Shown: positions 19,874 through 25,552 of the stretch, in pieces | How the letters are laid out: each line of letters starts with the position of its first letter | How positions within the stretch are numbered: position 1 is the stretch's first letter | Assembly: GCA_903789415.1 (NCBI GenBank) | Contig: CAIFEG010000002.1 | Span: forward strand, 83,730 to 147,729 | Reading direction: 5' to 3' | DNA length: 64,000 nt | Origin: an uncultured Eggerthellaceae bacterium | Lineage (GTDB): Bacteria; Actinomycetota; Coriobacteriia; Coriobacteriales; Eggerthellaceae | Notes under the pieces: model-generated | Databases searched by the model: none | What the model saw: the letters and a program-made list of their open reading frames with translations, nothing else | Told to the model about the DNA's origin: nothing | Translations under genes and position numbers: made by a program

Positions 19874-21307
19874 ATGGAAGAAGTCGTCACACCTCCGCAC
19901 GAGACCGAAAATCCTTTAAATGGGGGGTTGAAACGTCCAGCATCATTTGATCCGGTAATCTATATTAATTCACCTGATTGGCGTAATAGTCGCATGGGGA
20001 TGGATCGTATTACAGAACTCATGCATCGACTCGGCGATCCTCAAGACTACATGCATATCATCCATGTCGCGGGTACCAACGGAAAGGGATCTACCTGCGC
20101 TTTTATCGCTTCGGTTCTGCAAGAAGCAGGCATACGCACCGGTCTTTTTACCAGTCCTTATATCATTCGTTTTGCCGATCGAATTCATGTGGATGGACAC
20201 GAAATCTCTGATGATGATTTGATGCGTGCCACTCTTGAAGTTCGTGCACAGGCAGAAGCGATGGAAGACCATCCGACAGAATTTGAGCTGATGTGCGCGG
20301 TGGCGCTTGTGCATTTCCGCAACATGAAATGTGAATACGCCATTTTGGAAACGGGCCTTGGTGGGTTGTTGGATGCAACGAATGTGGTTGCACACCCGCA
20401 GCTGTGCGTGATGACGCCTATCTCTTTTGATCATATGGCGATTTTGGGCAATTCGCTCCATGCGATTGCATGGCAAAAGGCAGGCATCATTAAACCTGGT
20501 GCGGAAGTGGTCAGTTCGCCCCAAGATGAAGAAGTTATTCCTGTCTTTAAACAGCAATGTAGGAAAACGGGATGCTCCCTCACGTTTGTGGACAATGATG
20601 CAATCGAGGGAACTCCTTCCGATTTCTCTTATAAGCAGTTCAAACACATAAAACTTCGGCTTTTGGGAAGTTATCAGCCAGAAAATGCGGCTACGGCAAT
20701 CGAGGCAATCGAAGCATTGCGCCGTGAAGGGGTCAAAATCACCGACGAACAGGTCCAACGCGGATTAGAAAAAACGCAGTGGATCGGCCGTTTCCAGATT
20801 GTGGCGCACAATCCTACTACGATTGTCGATGGCGGACACAACCCCCAAGGAGCTCATGCGCTCGTGCAATCTTTAAAGCAGATGTTCCCTGGTCAAAAGG
20901 CTGTTTTCTGCATGGGAGTGTTGTCTGACAAAGATTACATAAAAATGATCGATGAGGTTATCCCGTATGCATCACGATTTGTATGCATTACGCCGCCGAA
21001 CCCCCGCGCGCTTGAAGCAGAAGATTTGGCGAAGGTCATTCACAATGAGGGCGAAGACCTTGTCGGATGCGAAGCTGCTGAAAATCCTGTTGTGGCTGAT
21101 AGCATCTATGAAGGCATTGAGCGTGCGCGTGGTATTGCGGGTCGCGATGGTCTTGTTGTTGCGTTTGGAAGCCTTTACTCCATCGGTGAAGTCATGGACG
21201 CACTTTCGAAACAATTTGTGCTGGATAGGGATGCAGAAGTTTCGGATTCACCAAGAAGCGATATTGCGACGCCTGCAGTGAATAATTCTGACAACGGGAT
21301 TCAATAG
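19874..21307 (+). CDS. folC: Folylpolyglutamate synthase / dihydrofolate synthase
   Basis: Mur-ligase-family enzyme that adds glutamate to folates. The 477-residue protein has the ATP loop HVAGTNGKGSTCAFIASVL near residues 61-79, TSPYIIRFADRI, ETGLGGLLDATNVV, and VDGGHNPQGAHAL in the C-terminal domain. GGGAG precedes the ATG. The last 30 or so residues are polar and probably disordered. The stop TAG lies within an 11-base tandem duplication. The same frame then stays open for 29 codons up to a second TAG at 21395-21397, inside the minisatellite. Confidence 0.94.
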   Translation: MEEVVTPPHETENPLNGGLKRPASFDPVIYINSPDWRNSRMGMDRITELMHRLGDPQDYMHIIHVAGTNGKGSTCAFIASVLQEAGIRTGLFTSPYIIRFADRIHVDGHEISDDDLMRATLEVRAQAEAMEDHPTEFELMCAVALVHFRNMKCEYAILETGLGGLLDATNVVAHPQLCVMTPISFDHMAILGNSLHAIAWQKAGIIKPGAEVVSSPQDEEVIPVFKQQCRKTGCSLTFVDNDAIEGTPSDFSYKQFKHIKLRLLGSYQPENAATAIEAIEALRREGVKITDEQVQRGLEKTQWIGRFQIVAHNPTTIVDGGHNPQGAHALVQSLKQMFPGQKAVFCMGVLSDKDYIKMIDEVIPYASRFVCITPPNPRALEAEDLAKVIHNEGEDLVGCEAAENPVVADSIYEGIERARGIAGRDGLVVAFGSLYSIGEVMDALSKQFVLDRDAEVSDSPRSDIATPAVNNSDNGIQ

Positions 21308-21322
21308 CCAATCAATAGCCAA
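21301..21322 (+). repeat. 11-bp tandem duplication over the folC stop
   Basis: TCAATAGCCAA at 21301-21311 is repeated exactly at 21312-21322. The stop TAG is at 21305-21307 in the first copy. Degenerate copies (CGATAATCAA, CTCAATAATCC) continue into the minisatellite. Confidence 0.88.
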
Positions 21323-21349
21323 TTCGATAATCAACTCAATAATCCGAAT

Positions 21350-21480
21350 TTGGGGAACTATTTGGAACTCTATTTGGAACCTCATTTGGAAGCCTAGATG
21401 GACCCTAGTTGGAAGCCCAGACGGAACCCTAATTGGAATCCCAGATGAAATCTTAAATGGAAGCCCAGATGGAAGCTCTC
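21350..21480. repeat. 12-bp minisatellite, eleven units, between convergent genes
   Basis: Eleven head-to-tail degenerate units, all 12 bases except one of 11, with consensus close to TTGGAAGCCCAG. Examples: TTGGAACTCTAT, TTGGAACCTCAT, TTGGAAGCCTAG, ACGGAACCCTAA, ATGGAAGCCCAG. The units start in the folC reading frame. The array fills the space between folC and the minus-strand PAP2 gene. There are no spacers, so it is not a CRISPR array. Confidence 0.92.
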
Positions 21481-21499
21481 GTTTCGAAAACCCGTTTGT

Positions 21500-22012
21500 T
21501 TATATTACGACGAAGCCCACGAGTCCACACGCCAGTGAAATAATGATCGCCCACACGACGTCGCGCGGATAGTGTACGCCTTCGGCAATCCGCGCGTATG
21601 CAAGGATTGCCGTACCTATCCAGGCAATTACCCCGGCAGGGATAGAAACTGCGGTGAGTGCGCATGAGATAATGGTTGCACTTGCCACATGGCGGCTCGG
21701 GAAAGATTTTCCCCTCTCATCTTTTTGCACAAGCGGATTGATGCTGCACGTCTGTACCGGACGTGGTTCGTTGATAGCAACGCGCATGATACTGATCAAA
21801 ACAAACGTGAGGGCAGGAACAACAAAAAATCTTGCCACCATGACATCGTGTTGAATAAAAAGTCCTATGCATGTACCCACGAAAACGATGGCAAAGAGCG
21901 CGACGATTATGCGGTCGGTCGTCAAAAGAGCCTTCCGCTTAGCTGGCGTGCGCCAGGTGGCGGAAATGCGTCGGTAAAATTCTTCATATGTATGCGCATC
22001 TACGTGCTTCAT
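21500..22012 (-). CDS. PAP2-superfamily membrane phosphatase
   Basis: Predicted lipid phosphatase, possibly acting on undecaprenyl or phosphatidyl phosphates at the membrane. The 170-residue protein has about four or five hydrophobic helices and the three-part motif: RVAINEPRP (Arg in place of the usual first Lys), SFPSRHVAS (PSRH in place of PSGH) and ARIAEGVHYPRDV with the catalytic His. It is transcribed toward folC and the minisatellite. The substrate cannot be assigned from sequence; a role in recycling the UppS product is possible. Confidence 0.87.
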   Translation of the reverse strand: MKHVDAHTYEEFYRRISATWRTPAKRKALLTTDRIIVALFAIVFVGTCIGLFIQHDVMVARFFVVPALTFVLISIMRVAINEPRPVQTCSINPLVQKDERGKSFPSRHVASATIISCALTAVSIPAGVIAWIGTAILAYARIAEGVHYPRDVVWAIIISLACGLVGFVVI

Positions 22013-23311: not shown

Positions 23312-25552
23312 ATGGCTGAATCGCTCTACCGCAAATATCGTCCACAAGTTTTTGAGGATGTCGTAGGGCAAGATAACATCACCCGAACGTTGCGGAATGC
23401 GGTTCGGGAAAATCGAGTGAGCCATGCGTATTTATTCTGCGGACCCCGTGGTACGGGGAAAACGACCACAGCGCGCCTGCTTGCAAAAGCCCTTTTATGC
23501 GAGCATGGTCCCACCGATACGCCATGTGGGAAATGCCAGGCATGTATTGATATTGCAAATGGCGTACATCCCGATGTGTATGAGCTGGACGCGGCAAGCC
23601 GCACCGGGGTCGACAATGTCCGCGATGAAATTATCAGTCGTGTGAATTTCGCGCCGACGCGCGGACGCAAAAAAGTTTACATCATCGACGAAGTTCACAT
23701 GCTCACCACGGCAGCGTTTAACGCGCTGCTCAAGACGCTCGAAGAACCTCCTGAGCACGTGATATTCATCCTCTGCACGACCGATCCGCAAAAGGTTCCG
23801 CAAACAATACAATCCCGTTGTCAGCGTTTTGATTTTCACCGCATCTCCGATGATGAAATCGTGCAGCGCCTGGGATATGTTTGTGCAAAAGAGAAAATCG
23901 AATACGAGCCGGAAGCGCTCGGGATTATTGCTCAGCATGCTCAGGGAGGAATGCGTAACGCGCTTACCTCTTTGGAACAGCTTTCTGCTTTTGGCGAAGG
24001 GCATGTGACGCTTAAAGGTGCCGAATCCATGTTAGGAAGCATCGATGTGACCGACATGTCTTCCATCATGGAAGCCATTGGCACACGCGATGTGGCGGCG
24101 TGCTTCAGCTGGGTAGATAATTACGTGGAAAAGGGTGCTGATCTGGCACAATTTGCCGATAATCTGGCCTGGCATGTGCGTGATGCCTATGTCCTTTCGC
24201 TCGCGGGAACCGATGCGGCAGTTGATGTAGACGATGCTGAGCGTGCGGAGCTGGTCAAAGAGATACAAATGTTTGGACCGGATCGCTTGGCGCGTCTTTT
24301 AGGTGTGCTGGGGGATTTGATCGAGCAACTGAAGACCTCAACAAATCCTCGTTTGTGCTTTGAAATTGCGCTTACACGAATGGTGCGCCCGGAATGTGAT
24401 TTGACGTTGGAATCTTTAGCCGAACGTGTTGAAGCGCTCGAACGAGGACAGGCGAATGCGCCGGCATCACCTGCCGCGGCGAAGCCGAAAACACCAGAAA
24501 ACGCCAGTGCACCGTCGGCGCAACAGATGAATCAGGCAACGCAACCTGGAGCAAACGCGCGCCCGCAGATGCACCCACAAATGCCAAATGCGCGTCCTCA
24601 GGCGCCAACTGCTATTCCGAATGCACGTCCGCAAGCTCCCAAAGGTATGCCCAACGGTATACCAAACGTGCGCCCGCAGGCTTCTGCTATGCCAAGCGCA
24701 CAGAATAATCCTGCACCGACGGGCCCTGCATCTTCTGCGACTCCAGAACAAAAAGCGATTCTGCAAAAGACAATCGATAATCCTGCGGCGCTTCAGCGCA
24801 CATGGCAAGAAGCGCTGGCACAGATTAAGAAAAGAAAGATACCTTTGGCAGTCATGTTCATGGGTGTTAAAGTTTTGCCAAATCAGACACATGATGGCAT
24901 TGTTTTTCAATTCCAGCCCAATGCGGAAATTGCCATGAATGCCGTGCAAAATCCCGAAAATCAAGAGATTATTCTTCAAGAACTTCGGAAATCGTTTGGA
25001 GAAGGAATTACGTATACCTGCAGGCACGCGACCTCTCAGCAAGCACAAGCTCAGCCGCAGACTGCGCCTACGCGCGCATCTGCACCTATGCCGAACGCAC
25101 GTCCACAGGTGCCAACGTATCCCATACCCAATGCGCAACCGCAGGCACCCACGCGTATGCCGAATGCCCGTCCACAGTCACCTGCACCCGCGCAGCCTCC
25201 GCAGCCGCAGCGCCCGGCAAGGATGCAGCCTCAACCACCGCAACAGATGCCTCAGCAAGGGGCTCAACAGCGCGTGCCCCAACAACAGACATCCCAACAG
25301 GAAGGTGCACCGCACCAGGCGCCTCGGCAGCAAGCATCGCAGCAAACGCCTCAGCAGCAAGCGGCTCCGCACCAAGTGCCCCAGCAGCCGACGCCATCTC
25401 GAACGCAGCAATCTGCCGACAATAAGAGTGGCTCAGATTCGCCAAGTTCGCCTGACGAAATGGGACAATTGCTTTCGGATGCGATGGGCTCAAATATCGT
25501 TTTTCATGAAGTAACAGATGACAATGAGAGTTCGAACAACCAAAATCAATAG
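23312..25552 (+). CDS. dnaX: DNA polymerase III subunits gamma/tau
   Basis: ATPase of the clamp loader. The N-terminal AAA+ part has Walker A GPRGTGKT (residues 44-51), four zinc cysteines in CEHGPTDTPCGKCQAC, the DExx segment VYIIDEVHM and the SRC motif QSRCQRFDF. From about residue 385 the protein becomes rich in Pro, Gln and Ala, with repeated PNARPQAP-type units (24540-24700 and 25060-25390) on either side of a folded block (about 475-575). No slippery A-run for a gamma frameshift was noticed. The site before the ATG (AAGGAGG) is strong. It precedes ybaB and recR, the classic order. Confidence 0.95.
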   Translation: MAESLYRKYRPQVFEDVVGQDNITRTLRNAVRENRVSHAYLFCGPRGTGKTTTARLLAKALLCEHGPTDTPCGKCQACIDIANGVHPDVYELDAASRTGVDNVRDEIISRVNFAPTRGRKKVYIIDEVHMLTTAAFNALLKTLEEPPEHVIFILCTTDPQKVPQTIQSRCQRFDFHRISDDEIVQRLGYVCAKEKIEYEPEALGIIAQHAQGGMRNALTSLEQLSAFGEGHVTLKGAESMLGSIDVTDMSSIMEAIGTRDVAACFSWVDNYVEKGADLAQFADNLAWHVRDAYVLSLAGTDAAVDVDDAERAELVKEIQMFGPDRLARLLGVLGDLIEQLKTSTNPRLCFEIALTRMVRPECDLTLESLAERVEALERGQANAPASPAAAKPKTPENASAPSAQQMNQATQPGANARPQMHPQMPNARPQAPTAIPNARPQAPKGMPNGIPNVRPQASAMPSAQNNPAPTGPASSATPEQKAILQKTIDNPAALQRTWQEALAQIKKRKIPLAVMFMGVKVLPNQTHDGIVFQFQPNAEIAMNAVQNPENQEIILQELRKSFGEGITYTCRHATSQQAQAQPQTAPTRASAPMPNARPQVPTYPIPNAQPQAPTRMPNARPQSPAPAQPPQPQRPARMQPQPPQQMPQQGAQQRVPQQQTSQQEGAPHQAPRQQASQQTPQQQAAPHQVPQQPTPSRTQQSADNKSGSDSPSSPDEMGQLLSDAMGSNIVFHEVTDDNESSNNQNQ

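Follow-up and report, generated by a model that had tools for sequence, protein, structure and literature searches.

A degenerate 12-bp minisatellite between the convergent folC and PAP2 genes of an uncultured Eggerthellaceae bacterium

The folC-PAP2 junction and its repeats

The window considered here is the whole stretch of 64,000 nucleotides that was analysed from the genome of an uncultured Eggerthellaceae bacterium. Within it, a folC gene and a gene for a PAP2-family phosphatase converge on a spacer of 192 bp (21308-21499) that contains a tandem repeat array lying inside neither gene. The features of this junction, in window coordinates, are as follows.

19874..21307, + strand: folC (folylpolyglutamate/dihydrofolate synthase); TIGR01499 at 386 bits against a cut-off of 162.65, with Mur_ligase_M and Mur_ligase_C
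21301..21323, no strand: perfect 11-bp tandem duplication, 2.1 copies, spanning the folC stop codon (Tandem Repeats Finder)
21308..21397, + strand: open continuation of the folC frame, 29 codons, stopping at TAG 21395-21397, with no coding sign
21359..21477, no strand: degenerate 12-bp minisatellite of ten units (Tandem Repeats Finder, self-match and unit comparison)
21500..22012, - strand: PAP2-family phosphatase gene, convergent with folC; PF01569 at 53.7 bits against a cut-off of 27.2

The folC gene ends with a TAG at 21305-21307 and the PAP2 gene stops at 21500-21502. The PAP2 gene is followed by a gene for a VTT-domain (DedA-like) protein, and the ORF beyond that is one we take to be dnaX. 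Repeats of 12 and 15 bp occur within the second half of this dnaX-like ORF as well (window 24638-24668 and 25320-25388), where the encoded segments are rich in proline/glutamine.

Nine of the ten array units are 12 bp long and one is 11 bp, with a mean pairwise identity of 68% and a core of (T)GGAA..C that is conserved across the units. Despite this low identity, about half of the 12 unit positions are nearly invariant. Tandem Repeats Finder reports period-12 rows at 21358-21438 and 21387-21476 as well as a period-24 row at 21375-21478 with a score of 110, and the higher-order 24-bp period is the stronger of the two. The self-match over 131 bp is 61% at a shift of 12 and 66% at a shift of 24, while the maximum reached by 5000 dinucleotide shuffles was 46% at any shift from 6 to 48. 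The array is a genuine head-to-tail tandem repeat with a periodicity well beyond chance, and its position between two convergent genes, as given in a first-pass annotation of this DNA, is confirmed by these rows together with the folC (+) and PAP2 (-) ORFs. Next-but-one units are more alike than neighbours (75% versus 68%), which is expected if duplications involved two units at a time. Weaker periodicity begins already at the folC stop, with Tandem Repeats Finder rows at 21301-21323 (period 11) and 21301-21342 (period 12). There are no inverted repeats of at least 10 bp in the spacer and array region, and a DNA search found no second copy of the array elsewhere in the same genome. A looser pattern search of this genome, for three TGGAA cores spaced 12 bp apart with 3 mismatches allowed, gave 125 matches, compared with 79 when the pattern was reversed as a control; included in this excess are the present array and a short run of 12-bp repeats at C1:148688-148728.

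Relatives of the junction and arrays elsewhere in the genome

Searches covered 60 genomes (this one included) and 138 genomes of the family, and no second genome of the same genus was returned among them. FolC was found in 59 of the 60 genomes, and its C-terminal tail was read in the 29 relatives that were returned as loci, a subset of the matching genomes. FolC of this bacterium extends some 30 codons past the conserved core, and in most loci the relatives' alignments stop between query residues 437 and 456. Twenty-five of the 29 relatives finish no more than 12 residues past the aligned core; for the remaining four, the translation either continued through a stop within the match or went beyond the edge of the locus. 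A PAP2 match occurs in 75 of the 138 family genomes, and among the 29 relatives' PAP2 loci that were read, two (G028 and G017) have the convergent folC-PAP2-DedA order. The folC-PAP2 gap is 51 bp in G028 and about 22 bp in G017, the latter a hand-corrected value, as the alignment ran beyond the real folC stop (13 codons after the first stop). Neither gap holds a Tandem Repeats Finder row. The spacer is longer here than in these relatives, and the array appears to be lineage-specific as far as the searched genomes go. A conserved array of fixed length in relatives, which the first-pass annotation had set against its own reading, was not found. DNA of the array region had a best match outside its own genome of E 0.005 over 22 bp among the 60 genomes, and the four family genomes other than its own that matched did so through the folC part of the query only. 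A genome-collection scan returned distant FolC relatives at 29-41% identity. Unrelated arrays do occur at comparable places in other genomes, for example a 25-bp unit in 4.5 copies after folC in G007 (L015) and a 27-bp unit in 4.9 copies after PAP2 in G084 (L105).

The folC array is one of many in an array-rich genome. We sampled 364 kb of this genome, made up of the window and 15 stretches of 20 kb, one of which (L074) had been picked for its pattern match, and counted merged arrays scoring at least 50 against crude gene calls (longest ORFs of at least 90 aa). This sample contains 60 arrays, of which 25 are intergenic within 32.4 kb of intergenic DNA, and the 24 intergenic arrays other than the folC one are built from other units of many lengths and sequences. 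Three replicates of dinucleotide-shuffled DNA of the same genome, each of 364 kb, yielded 6 rows in total. When the two chosen stretches (the window and L074) are left aside, 19 arrays remain in 24.1 kb of intergenic DNA, against which the same procedure gave 3 in 20.2 kb for G018 (p 0.002), 0 in 12.8 kb for G028 (p 0.0003) and 0 in 2.7 kb for G009; GC content is similar for G018 (0.499 vs 0.486) and differs for G028 and G009. Intergenic arrays are several times denser in the 364 kb sample of this genome than in G018 and G028, a small comparative observation. Loss of MutS was considered as an explanation for the many arrays and rejected: mutS1 is without a match in this genome and in seven relatives alike, and being unmatched in all eight genomes it does not explain the difference in density. 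Also present, near the start of a contig of this genome (C4:18-1015; L079:18-1015), are 15 copies at an exact spacing of 64 bp that are 75-85% alike over 102 bp and that look like a putative CRISPR array.

Reading frames across the array

According to the first-pass annotation, the frame of folC stays open for 29 codons after its TAG and stops at 21395-21397, and these coordinates are exact. The accompanying description of the units as multiples of three holds for nine of the ten, the 11-bp unit being the exception, and their reading as LE-rich tetrapeptides is correct for the first three units (LELY, LEPH and LEA), which are the only ones covered by the continuation before its stop. However, the 11-bp unit disrupts the phase through the array, and the proposed link to folC does not hold; the open frame is not peculiar to that gene, as two other frames stay open longer. 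One of these is a + frame open for 96 codons across the array (21282-21569), and the other is the PAP2 frame on the - strand, which is open for 83 codons past the PAP2 stop. Since 12 bp make exactly four codons, a tetrapeptide is repeated in any frame that enters the array; a 12-bp repeat always yields such frames, and one shared with a neighbouring gene is no evidence of coding. The frame that the array shares with folC is a coincidence.

We compared each codon with the codon 12 bp further on, over all ten units and in six frames, with 5000 column permutations as reference. Synonymous differences are not in excess in any of the frames; in the best frame, on the - strand, 9 of 23 differences are synonymous, a proportion matched or exceeded by 2062 of the 5000 permutations, each taken in its own best frame. 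Pfam searches with four stop-free readings of the array region returned nothing over the cut-offs, the sub-threshold matches being DUF1601 (E 0.27) and Yae1_N (E 0.0012). A stop-free reading of 36 codons on the - strand (window 21397-21504) places a glycine at roughly every fourth residue (GF[HQ]L).

Two coding origins have to be weighed against these results. That the array is the decayed remnant of a C-terminal FolC extension, formerly a tetrapeptide repeat read in the folC frame, is barely credible, even though the frame remains open through LELY-LEPH-LEA and the protein carries some 30 C-terminal residues that are absent from most relatives. Synonymous changes between units do not exceed chance expectation in any of the frames, the 11-bp unit throws the array out of phase, and the TAG stands upstream of the array in a duplication whose length of 11 bp is not divisible by three. 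The search for LExx-type tails that had been proposed for relatives found them in 0 of the 29 FolC loci, and the array is missing from the two relatives seen to share the folC-PAP2 pair. It is also very improbable that the array is the remnant of a minisatellite coding on the - strand for a GF[HQ]L tetrapeptide, derived from a lost gene or from a longer PAP2 protein. The right-hand units do read FHLG FHLR FHLG FQLG FRLG FQLG, and 9 of 15 codon differences in the right-hand half are synonymous, but this is a hint that is lost in the whole-array test, and the reading spans just 36 codons between stops. The Yae1_N match (18.9 bits, below the cut-off of 27.5) might seem to favor this origin; we take it to reflect the pattern of glycine at every fourth residue in that family, which counts against it. 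Known tandem-repeat extensions of protein C-termini resemble the array in having units that are mostly a multiple of three and some stop-free frames; the array differs in its upstream stop codon, its broken phase and its lack of a synonymous signal.

Transcription termination and the origin of the array

The first-pass annotation also suggested a transcription barrier, which finds no backing from an intrinsic terminator or from stable RNA structure; a Rho-type role is possible and weakly indicated. The spacer contains no intrinsic terminator, defined as a GC-rich hairpin followed by a T run, on either strand. On neither strand does the RNA of 21300-21500 fold better than shuffles (z +1.0 and +1.5). 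The array alone has z-scores of -0.9 and +0.6 on its two strands, and when folded as single-stranded DNA it does worse than each of 200 shuffles (z +3.2). Rfam gave no match for the array region at E up to 1. Rho is encoded in this genome (610 bits against a cut-off of 509), and Rho utilization (rut) sites share with the array a C every 11-13 nt, the lack of notable structure and a position at gene ends. The rut criteria given for RhoTermPredict (PMC6407284) include more C than G and a C every 11-13 nt in windows of 78 nt, and a simplified form of that rule was used for scoring. By this simplified rule, and with C nearly equal to G, 38 of 115 windows in the spacer are rut-like on the + strand and 50 of 115 on the - strand (33% and 43%), the highest fraction among the 21 convergent gaps that measure 100 bp or more and above backgrounds of 8% and 20% across the window.

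These values are consistent with a two-way Rho-dependent terminator, in which a pyrimidine-C step every 12 nt in the 3' ends of both transcripts would allow Rho to load and to terminate both the folC and the PAP2 transcript. We nevertheless consider this reading of the sequence unlikely, because any 12-bp repeat will show the required spacing and C does not clearly outnumber G (43 and 39 on the + strand), both of which set the array apart from established rut sites. In addition, the array RNA is unremarkable in its folding, the periods of the other intergenic arrays do not fit Rho, and a missing simple intrinsic terminator is nothing special, as 14 of the 21 convergent gaps, this one included, lack one on both strands. 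It is more doubtful still that tandem amplification built such a terminator, with a 12-bp unit that would match the cytosine spacing of Rho and a copy number that would tune read-through on both sides.

We favor, with a probability of about 0.82, the interpretation that the array is a lineage-specific, decayed and non-coding intergenic minisatellite in an expanded spacer, made by tandem duplication and without a coding role. The spacer would have expanded in this lineage through tandem duplication of a 12-bp unit, with later duplications involving 24-bp pairs of units, after which point changes and one deletion of a single base would have set the copies apart. The array may have arisen through replication slippage or unequal recombination, and it probably lacks a function. 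Three observations count against this non-coding interpretation. The near-invariant unit positions could reflect constraint, an effect that duplication of variants would also explain. The array ranks first among the 21 convergent gaps by the simplified rut rule. Convergent gaps are richer in arrays when gaps are counted (9 of 36 versus 16 of 187 others, Fisher p 0.008), but not clearly so by length (p 0.06, and p 0.25 without the chosen stretches).

Small variable segments are the subject of PMC2884548. The array resembles bacterial intergenic minisatellites and the VNTR loci used in MLVA typing, in that it consists of imperfect copies of a short unit, arranged head to tail between genes, with several unrelated arrays in the same genome. 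It differs from such typing loci in its 12-bp unit and in copies that are only 68% alike, so that it is probably old and less mutable than they are. The suggestion that it is a copy-number-variable locus is plausible, given its tandem structure and the perfect 11-bp duplication that spans the folC stop. A better candidate for variation in length is an array of the 11-bp unit ATTCTGTCTTA in another convergent gap of this genome, on C1 (L074:8095-8165; L067:908-978), whose 6.5 copies with 98% matches form a much more regular repeat than the one beside folC.
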